A DNA stretch of 64,000 nt from Thermacetogenium phaeum DSM 12270 (lineage in GTDB: Bacteria; Bacillota; DSM-12270; Thermacetogeniales; Thermacetogeniaceae). Every line of letters begins with the position of its first letter. Positions within the stretch are counted from its first letter, which is position 1. The stretch is from contig NC_018870.1 in NCBI RefSeq assembly GCF_000305935.1, forward strand, positions 2,465,001-2,529,000. The letters are read 5' to 3'. Both the position numbers and the translations under genes were made by a program. Under the pieces are notes generated by a model. That model made no database searches. It worked only from the letters and a program-made list of their open reading frames with translations, and had not been told where the DNA came from. Positions 6,700 through 46,886 of this stretch are shown here, piece by piece.

Positions 6700-8132
6700 A
6701 CTGCCACCTCCTGATTGATCCGGTACATATAATCCGCCCAGGCCTGTGCGTAAAGCAGAGTCCGGGCTACATCGTTCCAACTCCCCGATTCGAAGGCCAG
6801 CCTGGCCGCCCGTTCCACAACCGCCTGTTTGAAGAAGGCCACTGGCAGCCTCTCCCCCCGCAGCATCTTCCCGATCACCTTTAAGGCATAATCTCTAAAA
6901 ACCTTCTTATCGCCTTCGCTCTTGCCGGCAAAACCGCTCAGGGTTTTATAGAGGCTCTTGATCGCCCAATCGAGGGTGAAGAGATCATCCCGCCCAACAT
7001 CTCCGAATACCGCTTTAATCGCTTCCCCCCATTTTCGCTCCAGCATGGCCAGCCGTTCCGGGGGCACGTCCTCCACCATCAGGTGCACCAGCTCCTGGGC
7101 GTTGTTTCTCTCCCAGAAGATGAAGTGAAAAACCAATCCGCTCCCCTCTTGGGCTAAGCGGGAGAAGTACCGTGATTCCCTTTTCTCCCCGGGGCTCTGC
7201 AGCCTGTCCTGAGAAAGGCCCTCCTCCACGCTGGCGATCAGCTGCTTCAACGTCCGGCCACCGCCGCCTCCGACCGCCTCTGGGAGGGTCCAGATGTTGA
7301 TCCCTGGGAGTACCGTGTTGTTGTTCAGCTTCATCTGGAGCCTGTCCCGGCCGGAGGAGATGCTTTCAAAACAATCATCACAGACTGGGAAATCCCATGG
7401 CTCCTGTTTCTTGTCTAACCCATGGCAAATATTAACTTTATCTCTGGTAGAAAACTTGAAGACCTTACTTAAGGAACGGGGTGTGCAGAGCTTCCGGCAA
7501 TAGGCGCAGCGAACCTGCTCCTCCCCCAGCTTTAAGGTGTCCTCCAGCTTCCGCCTGAAGTAACCGAGAAAGGCGGGAACCTCACCGGGATAGAGGAAGC
7601 TGCCGTCATCCCCTTCTAACCCGAAGATAAAGGCGTGCGAAGATTTCGGATCCAGGTGGGGCAAAATCCCTTTCAATTTTTCCGGTAGTTCGGCCATCAC
7701 CCGATCTACCGATCCGGGGCTGAAGGTCTCTTCCCTCTCATAATCGAGCAGCAGCTTGTTCCTGATCTTGTTGAGGTGACAGCCCTTATCCTGCGCCCAG
7801 TTATCACCCTTCCCGAAGATTGCTTCTCTGTTTTTGTTACTATCTTTCTTCGGCTTGCCCATCAGATGAATCGGGCTGAAACCCCAGGTGGCAGCGCTGC
7901 CCGCCCTCTTGCGATAAAGATATTTCCCCTTCATCTCGGGCTGCATGATCTGATCCGCCAGATCGACCCAGGCAACGCCCAACACATCGATCTGTTCCGC
8001 CTCCCGATCGGCCACCTTGAGGGCGACCCGGATCAGCCTGCCGCCCTTTTCCATCGGGAAAATGAGATACGGATCGAGCCCTTTCCCAGGTGTTAGCGAC
8101 CCCAGTGAACGAATGGCGCTGATGAAACCCAT
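6696..8132 (-). CDS. cas8b: Cas8b (Csh1-type) large subunit lacking the C-terminal domain
   Basis: Cas8b is the large Cascade subunit that recognises the PAM. The 478 residues include LDPYLIFPMEKGGRL at the N-terminus and a zinc-ribbon pair, CAYCRKLC near 210 and CDDCFES near 252, as in Csh1 proteins. Together with the next gene (141 aa) the length equals a normal fused Csh1 of about 600 residues, so the large and small subunits are split. The start ATG has AGGAGGTG 6 nt upstream. It is the first gene of the I-B unit, behind a 127 nt gap after csx1. Confidence 0.88.
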   Translation of the reverse strand: MGFISAIRSLGSLTPGKGLDPYLIFPMEKGGRLIRVALKVADREAEQIDVLGVAWVDLADQIMQPEMKGKYLYRKRAGSAATWGFSPIHLMGKPKKDSNKNREAIFGKGDNWAQDKGCHLNKIRNKLLLDYEREETFSPGSVDRVMAELPEKLKGILPHLDPKSSHAFIFGLEGDDGSFLYPGEVPAFLGYFRRKLEDTLKLGEEQVRCAYCRKLCTPRSLSKVFKFSTRDKVNICHGLDKKQEPWDFPVCDDCFESISSGRDRLQMKLNNNTVLPGINIWTLPEAVGGGGGRTLKQLIASVEEGLSQDRLQSPGEKRESRYFSRLAQEGSGLVFHFIFWERNNAQELVHLMVEDVPPERLAMLERKWGEAIKAVFGDVGRDDLFTLDWAIKSLYKTLSGFAGKSEGDKKVFRDYALKVIGKMLRGERLPVAFFKQAVVERAARLAFESGSWNDVARTLLYAQAWADYMYRINQEVAV

Positions 8133-10315: not shown

Positions 10316-10822
10316 TTACAATTTTTGCTTATTGGCCCAGTTCATGAGCACTTTCTTCCAATCGTCGTGCTCATTTAGAGGGGGTTTTTCTTCGTTTTTC
10401 ACAACATCACCCTGCAAACGCCTGTTTTTACTTCTAGTCTGTACCCCTGAAGCCGAAACCCCTGCAATCTGGGCGTGGAAGATCCGGCTCAGCCAGCCCA
10501 GAACATATGCAAGCTCATCAAATGAAAGACCCTTTAAATCGGGGTGATTCACACGCCCCCTGCTTATTTCGAGCGCGCTGATAATCGCCTCATACTGCTG
10601 CCGCATACCGTAGCGGGCAAGAGGGCTTCCGGCCAAAGCCTCCACCATTGTCAACGCCTTGTGCATCCTGTCATCCGCTTTCGAAGAACGGGAAACATCC
10701 CGAAAGATACCAGCAACAGTTTTAACTGCCGTCGTCCCCTTCTTAGCACCCATTTCACGCAAGGGCGGCCCCTCCAGCAATCGATATGCCAGGCTCAAAA
10801 GGCGCTCTTTATTCATTGCCAT
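10316..10822 (-). CDS. Unrecognised small helical protein in the type III-D operon
   Basis: I do not recognise this family. It is about 168 residues from ATG 10822 (SD AGGAG upstream; ATG 10846 is also possible). It is predicted largely helical with a hydrophobic core stretch LSFDELAYVLGWLSRIF and a charged, possibly flexible tail rich in Lys, Arg and Asn after about residue 120. It lies between cas6 (15 nt) and a Cas7-type RAMP gene (27 nt) and is co-directional. It may be an accessory effector subunit comparable in role to Csx19 or another Cas11-like subunit, but I see no decisive motif. Confidence 0.6.
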   Translation of the reverse strand: MAMNKERLLSLAYRLLEGPPLREMGAKKGTTAVKTVAGIFRDVSRSSKADDRMHKALTMVEALAGSPLARYGMRQQYEAIISALEISRGRVNHPDLKGLSFDELAYVLGWLSRIFHAQIAGVSASGVQTRSKNRRLQGDVVKNEEKPPLNEHDDWKKVLMNWANKQKL

Positions 10823-33424: not shown

Positions 33425-33500
33425 TGGTGGGCGCGGTAGGAATCGAACCTACGACCTCATGAATGTGAGTCATGCGCTCTTACCGCTGAGCTACGCGCCC
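33425..33500 (-). tRNA. tRNA-Val (anticodon CAC)
   Basis: Full cloverleaf on the minus strand: acceptor GGGCGCG/CGCGCCC, D-arm GCTC-GAGC, anticodon loop CTCACAT, T-loop TTCGATT and an encoded CCA end. Confidence 0.95.
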
Positions 33501-33548
33501 AACGATATTCATTTTCGGCCTCCAACATCCGGCCTCTGACCTCTAAAA

Positions 33549-33623
33549 TGGTGGGCCCACCAGGATTCGAACCTGGAACCAATCGGTTATGAGCCGAGTG
33601 CTCTACCGTTGAGCTATGGGCCC
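33549..33623 (-). tRNA. tRNA with CAT anticodon (Met, or Ile2 if lysidinylated)
   Basis: Cloverleaf with acceptor GGGCCCA/TGGGCCC, anticodon loop CTCATAA, T-loop TTCGAAT and encoded CCA. The first base pair is intact, so it is not the initiator. The GGCTCATAACC stem resembles both elongator Met and Firmicute Ile2 tRNAs, so the charge cannot be settled by eye. Confidence 0.9.
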
Positions 33624-33624
33624 C

Positions 33625-33699
33625 TGGCTCCCCGGGCAGGATTCGAACCTGCAACCCTCCGGTTAACAGCCGGATGCTCTACCATTGAGCTACCGAGGA
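33625..33699 (-). tRNA. tRNA-Asn (anticodon GTT)
   Basis: Cloverleaf with acceptor TCCTCGG/CCGGGGA, anticodon loop CTGTTAA, T-loop TTCGAAT and a CCA end. It lies 1 nt from the CAT tRNA, so the three tRNAs are probably one transcript. Confidence 0.95.
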
Positions 33700-33835: not shown

Positions 33836-34681
33836 CTATACCCCGGCATCGCCTCCGCCGGATTCCGGTTTCCCCACAGCCATGGCCAACATAGTAGCCA
33901 CACCGATCTGCAGGGGATCGTGAATCACCCTGTCCCGGAAGGCGGCAAAGGCCTCTGGGGTGAGCCCCGGAGGCATCCCCGGTATGGCCAGAAAGGCTTC
34001 GGGGTGCAGATCGCCAACCCCGATGAAATTCCCCCGGGGGGTGGCGTCGACAAGATAGCGGTATTTCGCCAGGGCCGGGCGCAGCCGGTGCTCCACAATG
34101 AGATTGCCGTTCAGCTCCAAAAACCGGGCCTTGAGGGGATCGGTGTCCAGAACCGCCGGGCGGGCTCCCAACACCACCAGATGGGAAATGGCCGCCATTC
34201 CCACAGGGCCGGCTCCCAGAACAAGGACTTCCTTCCCTCTTAATCCGCCGGCCAGGGCGTTTAAGGCGGTTACAAAGCCGCGGCCGGTAGCCTCGTTGTT
34301 GTCCGCCATAACCCCGGAGAGGATATTGAGAGCAATGAACTTCCGGTCATCCGCCAGGAAGATAATTCTTGCCCCTTCGGCAACCGCCTCCGCCAGCCCG
34401 ACGACATCAGAGCCGCCGGGGATCGCTGCGGCAAATCCCAGGTGCCGGACAACAGCCTGAACCGCCTGGGTAAAAAAGGGGATCACCCCCTGCCCGGCGG
34501 TAACAGGAATAACGGCAACCGGTAGCCTGCCGGCTGCCTGCTCCAGGAGTTTTTCGGAAATACCGGCAGCCCTGCAGGCTATTTGCCGCAAGGTCAGCCC
34601 CGTTTTTCCAAGCAATTCCTCGTCATAACCGCCGATCTCTTCTGCAATCCTCTCCACATCGCTCTGCAAAAGTCGGGTCAT
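33836..34681 (-). CDS. pylD: PylD, final enzyme of pyrrolysine synthesis
   Basis: PylD oxidises 3-methylornithyl-N6-lysine and closes the pyrroline ring. The 281 residues fit the family: N-terminal helical part (MTRLLQSDVERIAEEI), VIPVTAGQGVIPFFTQAV, MADNNEATGRGF, the Rossmann loop VLVLGAGPVGMAA and VDATPRGNFI. It is the last pyl gene in reading order, 121 nt after pylSc. Downstream are only the tRNAs, none of them tRNA-Pyl. Confidence 0.93.
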   Translation of the reverse strand: MTRLLQSDVERIAEEIGGYDEELLGKTGLTLRQIACRAAGISEKLLEQAAGRLPVAVIPVTAGQGVIPFFTQAVQAVVRHLGFAAAIPGGSDVVGLAEAVAEGARIIFLADDRKFIALNILSGVMADNNEATGRGFVTALNALAGGLRGKEVLVLGAGPVGMAAISHLVVLGARPAVLDTDPLKARFLELNGNLIVEHRLRPALAKYRYLVDATPRGNFIGVGDLHPEAFLAIPGMPPGLTPEAFAAFRDRVIHDPLQIGVATMLAMAVGKPESGGGDAGV

Positions 34682-34802
34682 CTTCCTTTCATCCTCACTT
34701 TAGCCAACAAATCACCATTTAGTGAAAGAGCACGTTCCATCCCGCCTGCGTCCCGGAGGCCGGTTGCCCCAACTACCGGCCGTCCGTCCTCAACGAGGGA
34801 TC

Positions 34803-35642
34803 TCAGATGTTCAGACGGGCACCGTCGAGATAGGAAAGGCTCCGCCCCGCTCTGCGGATGTTGCCATGTCCCCTGAGGGCTACCACCAGGCGCTCCAGCC
34901 CGATACCGATCCCCACCCAGGGATCCGTAATCCCCCATTGCTCATCAAGCTTATGGGGCCCCCAGGAGCCGGACCCGAGTTCCAGGTCGCCGGCCACTAT
35001 GTCGACGGTATCCCCGTAAACGTGGCAGTTGTTCCTCTCCAGCCGATAATCCCTAATCCCCGCCGCTTCCATGGCAATTGCCGCCAGCTGCCGCAGCCTC
35101 TCCTCCTGCCGTCCTTCGAGGTCGTCCAGCTCTACCAGGTTGAGCATGGTAAACTCGTTGAGGTGCCGCATACCCTCCGATTCCTTGCGAAAACAGGGGC
35201 CCACTTCGAAGATCCGCACTGGCTTGCCCCACAAACGCAGCAGGTCGCGCAACAGGTGGTAAAGGTTCGGGGCCAGCATCGGCCGCAGGCACTTATCCCC
35301 GTCCACCCAAAAAACCTGCCTGAACAGCGGGTGATCCGGAGTAATGGTCATCTTGCCGAGCATGCCTCGGGACAGCAGAATCGGTGTCACCACCTGCACA
35401 AAACCTTCTTTCGTGAGCCGCTCCACCAGCCTGCTTTCAACCAGGGAAAGCAGAGGGCGGCGGGTGGTGTTTCTCAGCACCTGCAGCGCTTCCCTGTTTC
35501 TGGCCGCCAGCTCCCTCTCCAGCACCTGAAAGGCCCTGTCGCGCTCCTGAAGGGAATCGAAAAACCTGCCCTTAATGTTGTCTTCTCCTGCATCCAGTTC
35601 GCTGAGCCGCTGCTTCTGCGTTTCCGTCCAGGTGATACTCAA
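34803..35642 (-). CDS. pylSc: PylSc, catalytic domain of pyrrolysyl-tRNA synthetase
   Basis: Charges tRNA-Pyl with pyrrolysine. The 279-residue class II synthetase core shows motif 2 IFEVGPCFRKESEGMRHLNEF, seen here as FEVGPCFRKES and MRHLNEFTMLNLVE, plus LRPMLAPNLYHLLR and motif 3 GIGIGLERLVVALRG. The N-terminal tRNA-binding domain is separate (pylSn), as in bacteria rather than Methanosarcina. The start is TTG 35642 preceded by GGGGGATGA. Confidence 0.95.
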   Translation of the reverse strand: MSITWTETQKQRLSELDAGEDNIKGRFFDSLQERDRAFQVLERELAARNREALQVLRNTTRRPLLSLVESRLVERLTKEGFVQVVTPILLSRGMLGKMTITPDHPLFRQVFWVDGDKCLRPMLAPNLYHLLRDLLRLWGKPVRIFEVGPCFRKESEGMRHLNEFTMLNLVELDDLEGRQEERLRQLAAIAMEAAGIRDYRLERNNCHVYGDTVDIVAGDLELGSGSWGPHKLDEQWGITDPWVGIGIGLERLVVALRGHGNIRRAGRSLSYLDGARLNI

Positions 35643-35796
35643 CTCAGATCATCCCCCGCTTTATTGTTCGGCTGCCGGGGCAAATCCGCAGAAAACTTCC
35701 CCAGACGCCTTCTCGATTTTACACCGCCGTTAGCAAAAACCCCCGCAAGGATAAACCCCTTTTCGTCCTCCCTGCGATTCCCCCCGTAGAAGGCTT

Positions 35797-36123
35797 CTAC
35801 TGAGGATCCCGGAGATCGGTGCCATAGTGCTCTGTGAAGCGGGTGGCGGCAAACTTTTCGATCTTCCAGGCCGGTATCCGGCAGGCCCTGCACTTCTCAA
35901 AGACCCACTTGTTGCGCAGCCACCGGGCGGCGCGGCTGTTTTTGGACAGGCGCACCTGGAAGGTGTGGCCGCAGTGGGTGGTAACCTCGGCATACTTCCC
36001 CTTTTTGACGATCTTCCTGATGCCGTGAAGGACGCCGGTGCGCGACGGCCACAGCTTGATCTTGTTGATAAGAAGGTAGAAGTCCACCCGCTTTCGATAA
36101 TACCTTTCCTTCGCCTTACTCAT
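35797..36123 (-). CDS. pylSn: PylSn, tRNA-Pyl-binding protein
   Basis: A 108-codon gene for the N-terminal domain of pyrrolysyl-tRNA synthetase. Signature parts are KLWPSRTGVLHGIRKI, TTHCGHTFQVRLSKNSRAAR (zinc Cys/His) and KCRACRIP. ATG 36123 has AAAGGAG 6 nt upstream; an open frame to 36159 is ignored. Here it sits between pylC and pylSc, unlike the order in Desulfitobacterium, where pylSn follows pylD. Confidence 0.93.
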   Translation of the reverse strand: MSKAKERYYRKRVDFYLLINKIKLWPSRTGVLHGIRKIVKKGKYAEVTTHCGHTFQVRLSKNSRAARWLRNKWVFEKCRACRIPAWKIEKFAATRFTEHYGTDLRDPQ

Positions 36124-36322
36124 CCAAAAGCTCCTTTCAGTTTCCGATTCCTGGAACAACCTCTCAAGGTCGCCGCCAACCGCCCGCTTCCGGCCAGCCG
36201 GCTGCTCCCGGAAAAATGCCCGACCCTGCCGGCAGGCGCCGGCTGTTCCATCCCGCGAAGCGGCAGCAGCTTCGATGGGTAGCGTAACGAAGTGAGGCAG
36301 GGGCTGCGCTATCCTTTAATTC

Positions 36323-37456
36323 TCAGCGAGAAAACCGCTTCCCGATGGCGGCAAGCACTTCACAGCGCCTCTCCCAGGCTTTGTCCCGATCGGCACCGGT
36401 GACGATCAGGGTGGCCACCCATTCCACACGCCCCGGCTCAAAGTTCGTCAGAGCCTCATCCGCCCCGTAAAAGTCACGAACCAGCCTCAAAGGGCCCGCA
36501 TCGGAGATGATGTGCTCCCCCAGGGTTTCCACCCCTTCCGGAGAAACCCTGATATGCTCGTAAACGACCCCACTCTTTACTGAAAGGTCCACCTCCCGGG
36601 GTAGCTCCCCTAGCGAGAACACCCGGTAGAGAAGCTCAACGATGTTGACCCCGGTCGCCTTGTACACCGCAGTCGGCGTCTGGCTGGGCAGCCGGGCATC
36701 GATCTCCAGCAGTTTGAGCACACCCTGATGAAGGATCACCTCCAGGTCCATCACCCCGGTGAGGTCCAGCAAGCCGGCCACCTTCTCCGCCATTTTCGCA
36801 AACTGCCGCACCAGCGCCGGATCCAGCTTCACAGGGGCTGAGACCCGCTTGCAGTCAAAATCATCATCCATCTCCAGTTCCGTTACCAGGAGAGGGAGAA
36901 ACCTCCCCTTAAGGCCGATGACCTCCAGCGAATAGGAGTCCCCCTCCAGAAATTCCTGCAGAATGTAGTCACCCCCTCCGGGGCATGTTTCCTTGAAGAA
37001 CTCATCCAGCTCCCGCTGATCGGCGATCAGCCGAACCCCCCGGCTCCCGCTCAAAGCGGAGGGCTTGGCTATGAGGGGGAAACCACAGCCCGGCCAGTAG
37101 CTGGGAGCGGGAATGCCGTTCTGCCGAAACAGGAGGTCTGATTTCCTTTTGGACGAAGATACATCGTAAGCGGCCGGGTCAAATGCCAGAGGATACTCTT
37201 GAGCTGCGGCGAGCTCCGCCAGGAAGGTCAGCGCCCTTTCGTCCTCTAAAGCGGGAATGATCAGATCGGCCCCTCGCAGCACCTCCGTCAAAGCCTCTGC
37301 ATCCCGAAGAATGTCCAGCCGACGGTAGGAATCGCAGAGCCCCACCGCCGGGGCCTGGGGATTTCTGTCCACCAGGGTGACTTCCCAGCCCGCCTGGTGG
37401 GCGAGGTAAACGGCTTCCACCCCTTGGAGTTTGCCTCCTAATACAACTGCCCTCAC
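36323..37456 (-). CDS. pylC: PylC, 3-methylornithine-lysine ligase
   Basis: PylC joins 3-methylornithine to the epsilon-amino group of lysine with ATP. The 377-residue ATP-grasp protein starts with a Rossmann-like VVLGGKLQGVEAVYLAHQAG and contains PLIAKPSALSGSRGVRLI, YILQEFLEGDSYSLEVIG and KLLEIDARLPSQTPTAVY (metal-binding Glu/Asp). GTG 37456 follows AGGAGGAGAG. A 199 nt gap separates it from pylSn and holds no tRNA. Confidence 0.94.
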   Translation of the reverse strand: MRAVVLGGKLQGVEAVYLAHQAGWEVTLVDRNPQAPAVGLCDSYRRLDILRDAEALTEVLRGADLIIPALEDERALTFLAELAAAQEYPLAFDPAAYDVSSSKRKSDLLFRQNGIPAPSYWPGCGFPLIAKPSALSGSRGVRLIADQRELDEFFKETCPGGGDYILQEFLEGDSYSLEVIGLKGRFLPLLVTELEMDDDFDCKRVSAPVKLDPALVRQFAKMAEKVAGLLDLTGVMDLEVILHQGVLKLLEIDARLPSQTPTAVYKATGVNIVELLYRVFSLGELPREVDLSVKSGVVYEHIRVSPEGVETLGEHIISDAGPLRLVRDFYGADEALTNFEPGRVEWVATLIVTGADRDKAWERRCEVLAAIGKRFSR

Positions 37457-37484
37457 TTCTCTCCTCCTGTGACGAGAATTACGG

Positions 37485-38156
37485 CTAATAGAACATCTCC
37501 CTTTTGACCTCTTGCCCCGGTTCGATCACCAAAAAGTTTCCGTCCCAGTGCCCGGCAAGCAGTTTTTCCAGCAGGTTCAAGGAGCCGGGGATGACCTCGT
37601 ACTTCATATTGAAAGTTTCCGCCGTCTTGCGGGCGTATTCCTCATAAGCGGTCAGGTCATAGGCGCCGGTGTCGATGAGCGCCACCCGCCTATAATTCCT
37701 CATCACCTCTCGCGCCAGCCAGTGGGCCTTTTCCGGGGGATACTTCTTGACCCAGGGAACCTCCCGATTATAAACTGCCAGAGGGGTTTCCCCGTGCTCG
37801 ATCCACCCCTTGGTCAGATAAAAGGTCCCCGGTTCCCTGCGGGATTCCTCGAGGTATCTCTCGCGGGAGCCGAGAAAGAGGGCAATACAGTCGTCCGTCC
37901 TGGGAATCACCAGCTTAACCCGCTGCGGCTTCAAGCCCACTATCCCCTCGGAACAGAGACCGTAGCCGAGTAGGGCCACCTCATAGCTCCCGTCCTCTTC
38001 AATTTCGGCCAGACATCCCCGCAGCCTTTCATTTAGCTTGTCGGGATGGTTATGCAGGCCGAACTCCAAAACCCTAACGTCCAGGTGTTCAGGGGCCAGT
38101 TTCTCGATCTCTGGAGCAATGGATTCGCAAACTACTAAAACTGCTTTTTCTTCCAT
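37485..38156 (-). CDS. DUF1638 protein linked to methylamine/corrinoid methyltransferases
   Basis: A 223-residue protein with the DUF1638 blocks VLVVCESIAPEIEKLAP, ALLGYGLCSEGIVGL, LVIPRTDDCIALFLGSRE and YYLTKGWIEHG-like FYLTKGWIEHGE. This family is commonly found with MttB/MtmB methyltransferase clusters; its chemistry is not established. It lies between the corrinoid activator and pylC in one run. Confidence 0.85.
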   Translation of the reverse strand: MEEKAVLVVCESIAPEIEKLAPEHLDVRVLEFGLHNHPDKLNERLRGCLAEIEEDGSYEVALLGYGLCSEGIVGLKPQRVKLVIPRTDDCIALFLGSRERYLEESRREPGTFYLTKGWIEHGETPLAVYNREVPWVKKYPPEKAHWLAREVMRNYRRVALIDTGAYDLTAYEEYARKTAETFNMKYEVIPGSLNLLEKLLAGHWDGNFLVIEPGQEVKREMFY

Positions 38157-38174
38157 ACCTTCGCCCCTTTCCCG

Positions 38175-40028
38175 TCATGCTTTTGCTGGCGCAGCGGTGG
38201 GAAAGGACATCGAGGCCCCGAAGAGCTCCATAAACCTGGGGTAAGACCCCAGCTCTACATATTCAACTGAAGCTGCGATCCGGGCGGCGCGCCTGTATTC
38301 ACCTTTGGAAAGCAGGGCTGTGATCGCCCCGGTTCCGGCGGCGTTCCCGACTGGTCTTACCCTGTCCTCGAGAACAGAGGGAATCAGGCCGATAGCGCAG
38401 GCGCTGTGCCTGTCCAGATAGTTGCCGAAGGCGCCAGCCAGCAGCACCTCGGAAACGTCTTCCGGAGCGATTCCGTATCTGTCCAGCAGCACCGCAACAC
38501 CCGTTGCTATCGCCCCTTTGGCCAGCTGGAGCTCGCGCACATCCTGCTGGGTAATGTAGAGAGGCCTGCCGTCGGCAGCCTCATCCTCCGCTGCCAGCAA
38601 AAACGCCCTCCCACCGTCCTGTTCAACCACGCGGGAGGCAAAACTCTCGGCAGGTGTGCCGACGAGAGCCTCTGGGGGGAGAATCCTGCCCCGATAATCG
38701 ATGATACCGACCTTCAGCATTCCGGCCACAGCGTCGATAAGCCCGGACCCGCAGATCCCCTTTGGCCTCTCACCGTCAATGGTGGTGTAACTGAACTCTT
38801 CACCGAATTCAACGTGGTCAATGGCCCCTTTAGTCCCCCGCATCCCGCAGCTGATCTGAGCGCCTTCAAAGGCCGGCCCGGCTGCGGCAGAACACGCCAG
38901 AAGGCGGTCCTTCGTTCCCAACACGATTTCCCCGTTGGTGCCGATGTCGATGGCGAGTTTGATCTCCTCGCTTTTATCCATCTCCGTAGCCAGAATGACC
39001 CCAACGGTGTCGGCTCCGACAAAACCGGCGATATTGGGGAGCACGTAGATGACACCAGCCTCGTTGATCTCTATGCCTAATTCGGAGGCAGCCACAACCT
39101 GCTCCATCCCCGTCACCGGAACGTAGGGGGAAAGGGCGATGTGCTTGGGGTTGAGCCCCAGGAAGAGGTGGTGCATGCAGGAGTTCCCCACAACGGAGGC
39201 CGCATAAACGTCCTCCTTCCGGCACTTAGCCTCCGACGCTGCCTTTTCAATCAGCTCGTTGAGCACCTCGATGACGGCTCGATGCAATCTCTCCAGGCCG
39301 TCCTTCTCCTGGGTTGCGTAGGTGATCCGGGAAATGACGTCAGCACCGTACTTCGTCTGGGGATTCAAGGCAGAGGCGACCGCCAGCACCTTTCCCGTCA
39401 AGAGATCGAGGAGGTATCCCACAACAGTGGTCGTGCCGATATCAAAGGCGATCCCCAGGAGTGTGGACGTCGTATCCCCCTTCTCAATCCCCATGACCTC
39501 CTCACCGGCGGTAACGGCGGTGCAGGTAAAGCCTCCCGCCCGCAGCGCCTCCGGCAGTGCGCGCAAGGCCCTTAGGGAAATTCGCAGGTCCTTACTGCCA
39601 CCTGCCTCCTCCAGGACCGCCTGCAGCCGGTTCCAGTCAGGGCGCTGATCCTCGAGCGTCGGCGGCGGTGCTTTCAGGCAATGCTTCTGAACGTGGGGGT
39701 CCAGGTCAATTCTGCGCTCCGTCGTGGCAATGAGAATTTTATGACCTCGCACCTCAAGGAGCTCTACCCCTACATCCTCTTCAACCGCTGCGGCACAGGC
39801 AAGCCGGAGTCCATCTGCGATCTCTTTTTCATCCAGATGAGTCTTATCGGCCTCGGAAGGCTCCATCCGACCCTTCACAACCCTTACCCGGCACTTCCCG
39901 CACTTCCCCCTTCCCCCGCAGGGAAAGTCAAAGTCCAGCCCGGCCAGGTCGATGGCCTCCTTCAATAGTGTTCCCGCAGGCACCTCGACTTCCTTCATTG
40001 CGGGATAAAAGGTTACCTTGCACTTCAA
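38175..40028 (-). CDS. RamA/RACo-like reductive activator of corrinoid methyltransferases
   Basis: Reductively activates Co(II) corrinoid proteins to Co(I) with ATP. The 617 residues hold an N-terminal 2Fe-2S ferredoxin domain with Cys37, Cys43, Cys46 and Cys78 (FPCGGRGKCGKC, RLACAA) and a C-terminal ASKHA/DUF4445 ATPase (IAFDIGTTTVVGYLLD, LAIDIGTNGEIVLG, GSGLIDAVAGMLK, LLAGAFGNYLD). The ferredoxin end makes it RACo-like rather than the archaeal RamA with C-terminal 4Fe-4S clusters. The start is TTG 40028 after GGGGAG. No methyltransferase gene lies beside it in the window. Confidence 0.9.
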   Translation of the reverse strand: MKCKVTFYPAMKEVEVPAGTLLKEAIDLAGLDFDFPCGGRGKCGKCRVRVVKGRMEPSEADKTHLDEKEIADGLRLACAAAVEEDVGVELLEVRGHKILIATTERRIDLDPHVQKHCLKAPPPTLEDQRPDWNRLQAVLEEAGGSKDLRISLRALRALPEALRAGGFTCTAVTAGEEVMGIEKGDTTSTLLGIAFDIGTTTVVGYLLDLLTGKVLAVASALNPQTKYGADVISRITYATQEKDGLERLHRAVIEVLNELIEKAASEAKCRKEDVYAASVVGNSCMHHLFLGLNPKHIALSPYVPVTGMEQVVAASELGIEINEAGVIYVLPNIAGFVGADTVGVILATEMDKSEEIKLAIDIGTNGEIVLGTKDRLLACSAAAGPAFEGAQISCGMRGTKGAIDHVEFGEEFSYTTIDGERPKGICGSGLIDAVAGMLKVGIIDYRGRILPPEALVGTPAESFASRVVEQDGGRAFLLAAEDEAADGRPLYITQQDVRELQLAKGAIATGVAVLLDRYGIAPEDVSEVLLAGAFGNYLDRHSACAIGLIPSVLEDRVRPVGNAAGTGAITALLSKGEYRRAARIAASVEYVELGSYPRFMELFGASMSFPTAAPAKA

Positions 40029-40345
40029 CGCTACGCACTCCCCTCTTTCAGATAATTACTGCCCTGAAAATACATCAAGTTCACCCGCCGGTCTGCCGCT
40101 CGACTCCCGATTCCAGACCGGACGGTGATGGCGGCGACGAAAGGCAGTGCGGTATGATCCCTGTTCAGTAATCTTCACAAACACGGGACTTGCCCCGCAT
40201 GCCGTTAGAATACCTTGTAAGGTTCGACAGCGGTTGACATTTTTCCTCCTGCCGCAATCATTCTCCGCTTTCGTCAATGGCCGCTGTGCCCGTAGAGGTG
40301 GCCAACTCACCGGGAATAAGCAAAACAGATCGGGGATGACGCCAG
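40029..40345. other. Intergenic region carrying dispersed repeat copy 1
   Basis: 317 bp between ramA-like and tetR genes with no credible coding frame. It contains the hairpin repeat at 40059-40125. The rest has scattered short inverted repeats (for example ACGGGACTTGCCCCG) but nothing I can name. Confidence 0.4.
40059..40125 (-). repeat. Dispersed hairpin repeat, copy 1
   Basis: On the minus strand it carries CCGGTCTG, a 19 nt core GGAATCGGGAGTCGAGCGG that overlaps the arm, then CAGACCGG, giving a perfect 8 bp stem, and ends TATTTTCAGGGCAG. The same core and tail recur on the plus strand at 46775-46838. Reading frames differ between copies, so it is not conserved protein. Confidence 0.7.
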
Positions 40346-46529: not shown

Positions 46530-46886
46530 AAGGCGGCTTTTTCTAGTAGACCACCATGCCGCCAGCGGCGGCACCATCAGAGAATGTCTACCGGCGAGCG
46601 ACCTACGGAAGGCCTGGTAACAGGACAGGCGAAGCGAGGATGACAGGCCGGAATGCGAGCTTAAGAGTTTCAACGGAATGGATTTGCTGCGTGGCCAAAC
46701 GCTGCGATTGGCAGAAGCAATTCGTAACATGTTACGCAGCATCCCAGGGCTGTCCCAAAGCGAGCCGTCGTCCTGTCCGGCCTGGAATCGGGAGTCGAGC
46801 GGTAGACCGGCAGGGTATGCAATCTATTTTCAGGGCAGACATCAGAAACCATCCTCTCGTCTGCCCTGTTTGCTTATAGGCGGAGG
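46530..46886. other. Intergenic region carrying dispersed repeat copy 2
   Basis: 357 bp with no credible coding frame. It contains many short inverted repeats (for example ATGCCGCCAGCGGCGGCA) and the repeat at 46775-46838. GC-rich and structured, it could be a non-coding RNA or the remains of a small mobile element. Confidence 0.4.
46775..46838 (+). repeat. Dispersed hairpin repeat, copy 2
   Basis: GTCCGG-CTGGAATCGGGAGTCGAG-CGG, then AGACCGGC, and the tail TATTTTCAGGGCAG repeat copy 1 at 40059-40125 in opposite orientation. The core of 21 nt is identical apart from one base, while the spacer before the tail differs in sequence and length by 2 nt. Confidence 0.7.

Follow-up and report, generated by a model that had tools for sequence, protein, structure and literature searches.

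We demonstrate that Thermacetogenium phaeum DSM 12270 carries a complete set of pyrrolysine (pyl) genes which is split over two loci of one chromosome. The DNA analyzed here, referred to as the window, is the whole 64-kb stretch C1:2465001-2529000 of the single contig that makes up this genome (2,939,057 bases; 99.98% complete, 0.84% contaminated). The window holds pylC, pylSn, pylSc and pylD behind the genes for a RACo-type corrinoid reductive activator and a DUF1638 protein, whereas pylB and the tRNA-Pyl gene pylT are found elsewhere on the chromosome. We believe that the window probably represents one of the two halves of a full pyrrolysine system, the C-Sn-Sc-D block having moved out of an ancestral cluster to the RACo-DUF1638 locus. 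The pyl genes of T. phaeum therefore do not lie in one cluster, which is the usual trait of the system and not a strictly defining one, and the split does not define a new system but rearranges one that is already known.

The pyrrolysine genes of T. phaeum occupy two distant loci

In the window, the minus strand carries the genes for RACo and DUF1638, followed by pylC, pylSn, pylSc and pylD and then by those for tRNA-Asn, tRNA-Met and tRNA-Val (Table 1). Pyl proteins were judged against the NCBIfam curated cut-offs and Pfam domains against the gathering cut-offs, and all four Pyl proteins of the window scored above them, with PylRS encoded as separate PylSn and PylSc subunits. A first-pass annotation of this DNA had proposed exactly these four genes together with a RACo-like activator and DUF1638, and the family models bear out each of them. 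Our genome-wide single-copy searches covered PylB, PylC, PylD, PylSc and pylT; PylC, PylSc and PylD each gave one match above cut-off in the profile search. Within the window, ARAGORN found three tRNAs, none with a CTA anticodon, in agreement with Rfam, and the genome-wide matches to PylB (one above cut-off), MttB (eight) and MtbB (one) all lie outside it. The annotation was thus right that the window lacks pylB, a CTA tRNA and a methyltransferase, a statement that holds for the window and not for the genome.

Its suggestion that the missing genes lie elsewhere proved correct, since a search of the genome for pylB, tRNA-Pyl and methyltransferase genes with in-frame TAG recovered all of them on the same chromosome, MtmB being the one methyltransferase without a match in the profile search. 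The sole PylB match above cut-off (C1:2793989-2795023) scores 493.5 bits (cut-off 348.2), and its translation contains a C-x3-C-x2-C motif (CRNNCTFC), which we take to be characteristic of radical-SAM (S-adenosylmethionine) enzymes. At C1:2795199-2795270 (L013:10200-10271, L013 being the locus that holds pylB and pylT), ARAGORN identified a tRNA-Pyl with a CTA anticodon and a cloverleaf fold, which is present in a single copy genome-wide. This tRNA is not among the 47 genome matches of the general Rfam tRNA model, which is therefore unfit for declaring pylT absent, and we used ARAGORN for this purpose. About 291 kb separate the 5' end of pylC from pylB, with the block and pylB/pylT on opposite strands, so that neither pylB nor pylT adjoins an edge of the window or was missed inside it.

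The methyltransferase genes complete the picture. The single mtbB, coding for a dimethylamine methyltransferase, and two of the mttB genes each contain one internal TAG, and the TAG-containing mtbB and one TAG-containing mttB sit at the pylB/pylT locus, while the other TAG-containing mttB lies elsewhere on the chromosome (locus L100). When read through, the TAG falls in KADGL-O and VAGG-O/VGGG-O contexts, as in the genes of relatives (seven genes, three genomes).

Both TAG-containing mttB genes (L013 start 2400, minus strand; L100 start 6581, plus strand) also terminate with TAG, which means that UAG would both encode pyrrolysine and end translation within a single mRNA; the second gene has an additional stop directly after the terminal TAG. 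The mttB genes compared from Paradesulfitobacterium and from the family member G008, introduced below, do not combine a TAG stop with an in-frame TAG.

Table 1. Features of the T. phaeum window (window numbering) and copies of a dispersed repeat.
Feature	Position	Strand	Evidence
RACo-type corrinoid reductive activator (2Fe-2S, linker, middle and ASKHA domains)	38175..40028	-	Pfam PF00111, PF17650, PF17651, PF14574 above cut-off
DUF1638 protein, probable activator partner in corrinoid reactivation; TAG stop	37485..38156	-	PF07796, 163.5 bits vs gathering cut-off 27
pylC, 3-methylornithine--lysine ligase	36323..37456	-	TIGR03909, 427.6 bits vs cut-off 248.3
pylSn, small PylRS subunit; TAG stop; ATG at 36123 likely start, open frame extends up to 36159	35797..36123	-	TIGR03912, 118 bits vs cut-off 51.15
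pylSc, catalytic PylRS subunit	34803..35642	-	TIGR02367, 336 bits vs cut-off 178.15
pylD, final enzyme of pyrrolysine synthesis; TAG stop	33836..34681	-	TIGR03911, 229.1 bits vs cut-off 150.05
tRNA-Asn, tRNA-Met, tRNA-Val, downstream of the pyl block, outside the pyl system	33425..33699	-	ARAGORN
Dispersed repeat of ~65 bases, copy upstream of RACo	40059-40123		82-95% identical to other copies
Dispersed repeat, other copies	window 46775-46838, L100:3698-3762, L008:1329-1391, L013:15325-15391, L028:2699-2763, C1 near 2392718		

Most pyl-bearing relatives keep the cluster together

We searched 20 genomes of the Thermacetogeniaceae family, with T. phaeum included among the pyl carriers. PylSc scored above cut-off in six genomes including T. 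phaeum, all of which also had PylB above cut-off; the other five carriers are designated G002, G007, G008, G015 and G016, the last being Syntrophaceticus schinkii. In four of these five (G002, G007, G015 and G016) the genes pylB-C-Sn-Sc-D are consecutive on one strand, with about 3 kb at most between pylB and pylSc, and in the relatives the start of pylC abuts or overlaps the end of pylB. The tRNA gene follows pylD in G007, G015 and G016; the first scan of the G002 pyl locus gave no tRNA, and the wider survey described below, which covered this contig in reverse orientation (L144), places pylT at its extreme end. G008 carries fragmented copies, and one of its contigs runs pylC-Sn-Sc-D-pylT-sigma54 regulator-mtbC and continues with mtbB and mttB. 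The regulator beside pylT is 61.5% identical between T. phaeum and G008 over 460 residues. Another G008 locus (L098, G008:C48:8000-25842) is a partial cluster of pylB, pylC and pylSn with no pylSc or pylD match downstream, in a genome that has other pyl copies.

The pyl genes of S. schinkii have already been published (PMC5113046). S. schinkii Sp3 and its relatives share with T. phaeum the same genes and the same C-Sn-Sc-D order, with PylSc 76% identical, and differ from it in that all their pyl genes are contiguous with pylT. The first-pass annotation had described the order in the window as unusual, which stands only in part: the internal order is normal for the family and is not the commonest one in bacteria, and the unusual trait is the removal of the block from its cluster.

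Origin of the split

Taking these comparisons together, the ancestral family cluster would most likely have run mtbC-pylB-pylC-pylSn-pylSc-pylD-pylT-regulator. The distant T. phaeum locus reads mtbC-pylB-91 bases-pylT-sigma54 regulator, with precisely the C-Sn-Sc-D block absent. We therefore envisage that in the Thermacetogenium lineage this block left the cluster and landed behind the RACo-DUF1638 pair, at a site that would be an older neighborhood, present before the block arrived. Support for the latter comes from family member G010, which has no PylRS above cut-off: relatives of the efflux genes, the TetR gene, DUF1638 and RACo of the window lie in a row at its locus L138, and no pyl gene match was found in the 18 kb examined. 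The presumed direction of the move, from the original cluster to the RACo/DUF1638 locus, follows from these gene orders. Phylogenetic trees agree with the move and do not prove it. T. phaeum groups with G002 and the third G008 copy (G008c) in the PylSn tree (support 100/99) and with G002 in the PylSc tree (95/88), while its position was not resolved in the PylC and PylD trees.

Several observations weigh against this interpretation. In the best PylB tree, T. phaeum joins G002 and G008c with a support of only 70/44, and an alternative grouping was not rejected (p-AU 0.146), so that a shared history of the two halves is not established. Moreover, the order of DUF1638 and RACo in G010 is reversed relative to T. 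phaeum. Finally, no pylC or pylD fossil was recognized in the 91-base gap that separates pylB from pylT, and the excision is thus deduced from the relatives alone. A short frame behind a ribosome-binding-like site in this gap (MSKKIL) was considered as a scar and rejected, as it is unlike the PylC starts of the relatives and a blastn search of the T. phaeum loci compared gave no second copy. Likewise, a blastn search for pylT sequence in the window and these loci gave no remnant after pylD. We also rejected the dispersed repeat upstream of RACo (Table 1) as the vehicle of the move because its copies, one of which lies about 5 kb from pylT, do not flank the block.

Alternatively, two full ancestral clusters may have undergone complementary loss without any move, one keeping pylB and pylT and the other C-Sn-Sc-D. 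The presence of more than one pyl cluster in G008, including the partial one at L098, leaves room for such a course of events, as do the firm grouping of PylSn and PylSc with G002 and the weak placement of PylB with its unrejected alternative. However, every T. phaeum pyl gene searched genome-wide has a single copy above cut-off, the best PylB tree also unites T. phaeum with G002 and G008c, as one shared history predicts, and duplication followed by loss requires more events than one move, all of which makes this scenario rather unlikely in our opinion. A split introduced by misassembly of the 2012 genome, which was built from 454 reads according to PMC3551663, is highly improbable, given that the genome is one contig of high completeness and low contamination and that both junctions lie within tight gene neighborhoods. 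In addition, the GTG start codon of pylC is preceded by a ribosome-binding-like site of its own and lies 28 bases past DUF1638, as opposed to abutting or overlapping pylB in the relatives, which gives the junction an evolved rather than a misassembled appearance. We therefore favor relocation of the block as the origin of the split.

Divided pyl sets in other bacteria

To place this arrangement in context, we draw on a survey in which species genomes were scanned with a PylSc alignment (288 relatives) and the best 80 loci of 288 were kept. The commonest order was T-Sc-B-C-D-Sn (28 of 80 loci), which matches the pylTScBCDSn order described in PMC3941956. This common bacterial cluster, found for example in Desulfosporosinus and Sporomusa, has the same components as that of T. 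phaeum and differs from it in being unsplit and in another order. Of the 27 surveyed loci with full 10-kb flanks, 24 contained PylB and 20 the whole set of five partners (pylB, C, Sn, D and T). A PylB match was missing from 19 of the 80 loci, mostly on short contigs; the genomes of 11 of these were checked and seven had PylB above cut-off elsewhere. Six of the seven contigs concerned hold pylB-C-D-Sn together without pylSc, and in Paradesulfitobacterium a single contig carries pylB and pylSc about 16 kb apart. A divided pyl set is therefore not unique to T. phaeum, as the genes are divided in other genomes as well. The Dehalococcoidia, Syntrophomonadaceae and Acetocimmeria resemble T. phaeum in this respect, and in Dehalococcoidia pylSc also follows a RACo gene. 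These genomes, mostly fragmentary drafts, have pylSc alone apart from pylB-C-D-Sn, in contrast to T. phaeum, where pylB and pylT are apart. In none of the 80 surveyed loci does pylT lie downstream of pylB while the remaining four genes are located elsewhere; in the ten loci where pylB and pylT are neighbors, the tRNA gene always precedes pylB and shares its strand. PMC4427996 mentions a PylRS in Thermacetogenium, and we found no description of the T. phaeum split in the literature searched, which consisted mostly of papers available without subscription.

The activator and DUF1638 protein beside the block

The activator contains the Fer2, RACo_linker, Raco_middle and RACo_C_ter domains in this order, all four above the Pfam cut-off, and falls below the cut-offs for RamA (TIGR04270, 141.6 bits vs 500) and AcsV (NF040756, 509.4 bits vs 800). 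In Phaeobacter inhibens, the phenotypes of a DUF1638 protein are linked to those of a RamA-like ferredoxin/DUF4445 protein (PMC5764234). On the strength of this genetic link, RACo and DUF1638 are likely to form a corrinoid-reactivation pair in T. phaeum also. The two pairs are alike in combining a RamA-like activator with DUF1638; they differ in that the Phaeobacter pair serves methionine synthase, whereas the one in T. phaeum precedes pyl genes. In 20 of the 80 surveyed loci, RACo was matched no more than 4 kb upstream of pylSc, which makes the RACo-pyl neighborhood a recurrent one; DUF1638 was matched in two of the 80.

Regulation of the two halves

The locus of pylB and pylT contains four matches to a strict sigma-54 pattern against 0.06 expected, and the same numbers were obtained for the corresponding G008 locus, L095. 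Two divergent sigma-54 sites, L013:7938-7953 (+) and 7768-7783 (-), lie between the mtbC-pylB-pylT operon and a transhydrogenase-like/aminotransferase/mtbB operon. By contrast, the only strict match in the window is at 10776, far from the pyl block, and no sigma-54 site was found before RACo at 38-41 kb even with a looser pattern. We believe that the block, which would be co-transcribed with RACo and DUF1638, has probably left sigma-54 control. Less favorable to this idea are the findings that G016 has a site directly before pylB only with the looser pattern, its one strict match (L091) lying inside the cluster on the other strand, and that no sigma-54 site was seen just before pylB at L092, L093, L096, L097 and L098. 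No sigma-54 site was found at L100, around the second TAG-containing mttB, with up to one mismatch allowed. A promoter scan revealed no sigma-70-like site for the RACo operon on the minus strand; one such site, matching 11 of 12 positions, lies at 33744-33716 beside the tRNA-Asn/Met/Val group.

Between mtbB and the sigma-54 promoter region, on the minus strand, the locus also carries a class-III aminotransferase gene and a PntA/alanine-dehydrogenase-like gene (L013:4598-7678). Neither has a match in L095 of G008, and their substrate may be an amino-methylated compound other than trimethylamine.

We also considered whether the TAG stops of pylSn, pylD and DUF1638 could be a sign of autoregulation and rejected this, because TAG is not enriched: it closes nine of 37 family pyl genes, those of T. 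phaeum among them, and 19 of 60 crude frames of the window.

Function and implications for T. phaeum

The roles that PylB, PylC, PylD and PylSn/Sc play in the pathway are established (PMC3941956), and we infer that the T. phaeum proteins work. PylB would then provide 3-methylornithine, PylC would join it to lysine and PylD would close the ring; PylSc/PylSn would charge tRNA-Pyl, which would read the in-frame UAG of mtbB and mttB, and RACo, probably with DUF1638, would reactivate the corrinoid protein of MtbB/MttB. The T. phaeum genome paper (PMC3551663) lists methyltransferases for tri- and dimethylamine and reports that the organism did not grow on trimethylamine, for which reason working pyrrolysine decoding is unproven. 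The string 'pyrrolys' does not occur in the main text of that paper, nor do 'methylamine' or 'mttB' in the main text of a 2019 proteome paper (PMC6436200).

The pyl genes could accordingly be a dormant remnant, with intact sequences that lost coordinated expression after the split in an organism that does not use methylamines. The lack of growth of the pure culture on trimethylamine, the restriction of sigma-54-type sites to the mtbC-pylB-pylT locus with none near RACo, and the lack of an MtmB match in the genome are in line with this notion. Intact reading frames and a conserved tRNA and TAG contexts, on the other hand, give no sequence sign of decay, and the failure on 20 mM trimethylamine was recorded under one set of conditions and could have other causes; we consider dormancy improbable. 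Equally tentative, and in our view doubtful, is a two-signal gate, in which pylB and pylT are under sigma-54-type control, next to a sigma-54 activator gene, and pylC, PylRS and pylD are made only with the corrinoid-reactivation operon, such that pyrrolysine would be decoded only when both are on. The first-pass annotation had further suggested that the precursor methylornithine is imported or made by a route without PylB, a proposal that arose solely from the absence of pylB within the window, found no other support and has virtually no probability left, as a full PylB well above cut-off is encoded on the chromosome and no alternative route is needed.

Finally, our analysis removes an apparent gap, the lack of PylB and tRNA-Pyl, which could have passed for an alternative pyrrolysine route. 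If true, the two-signal gate could explain how a complete set and the use of TAG as an ordinary stop go together with the lack of trimethylamine growth in the one published test considered (PMC3551663). T. phaeum, a thermophile that can be cultivated, has the full set and reportedly fails to grow on trimethylamine, offers a clear example of a pyl cassette that was probably disrupted by relocation and represents a usable test of how much linkage and co-regulation the pyl genes need.

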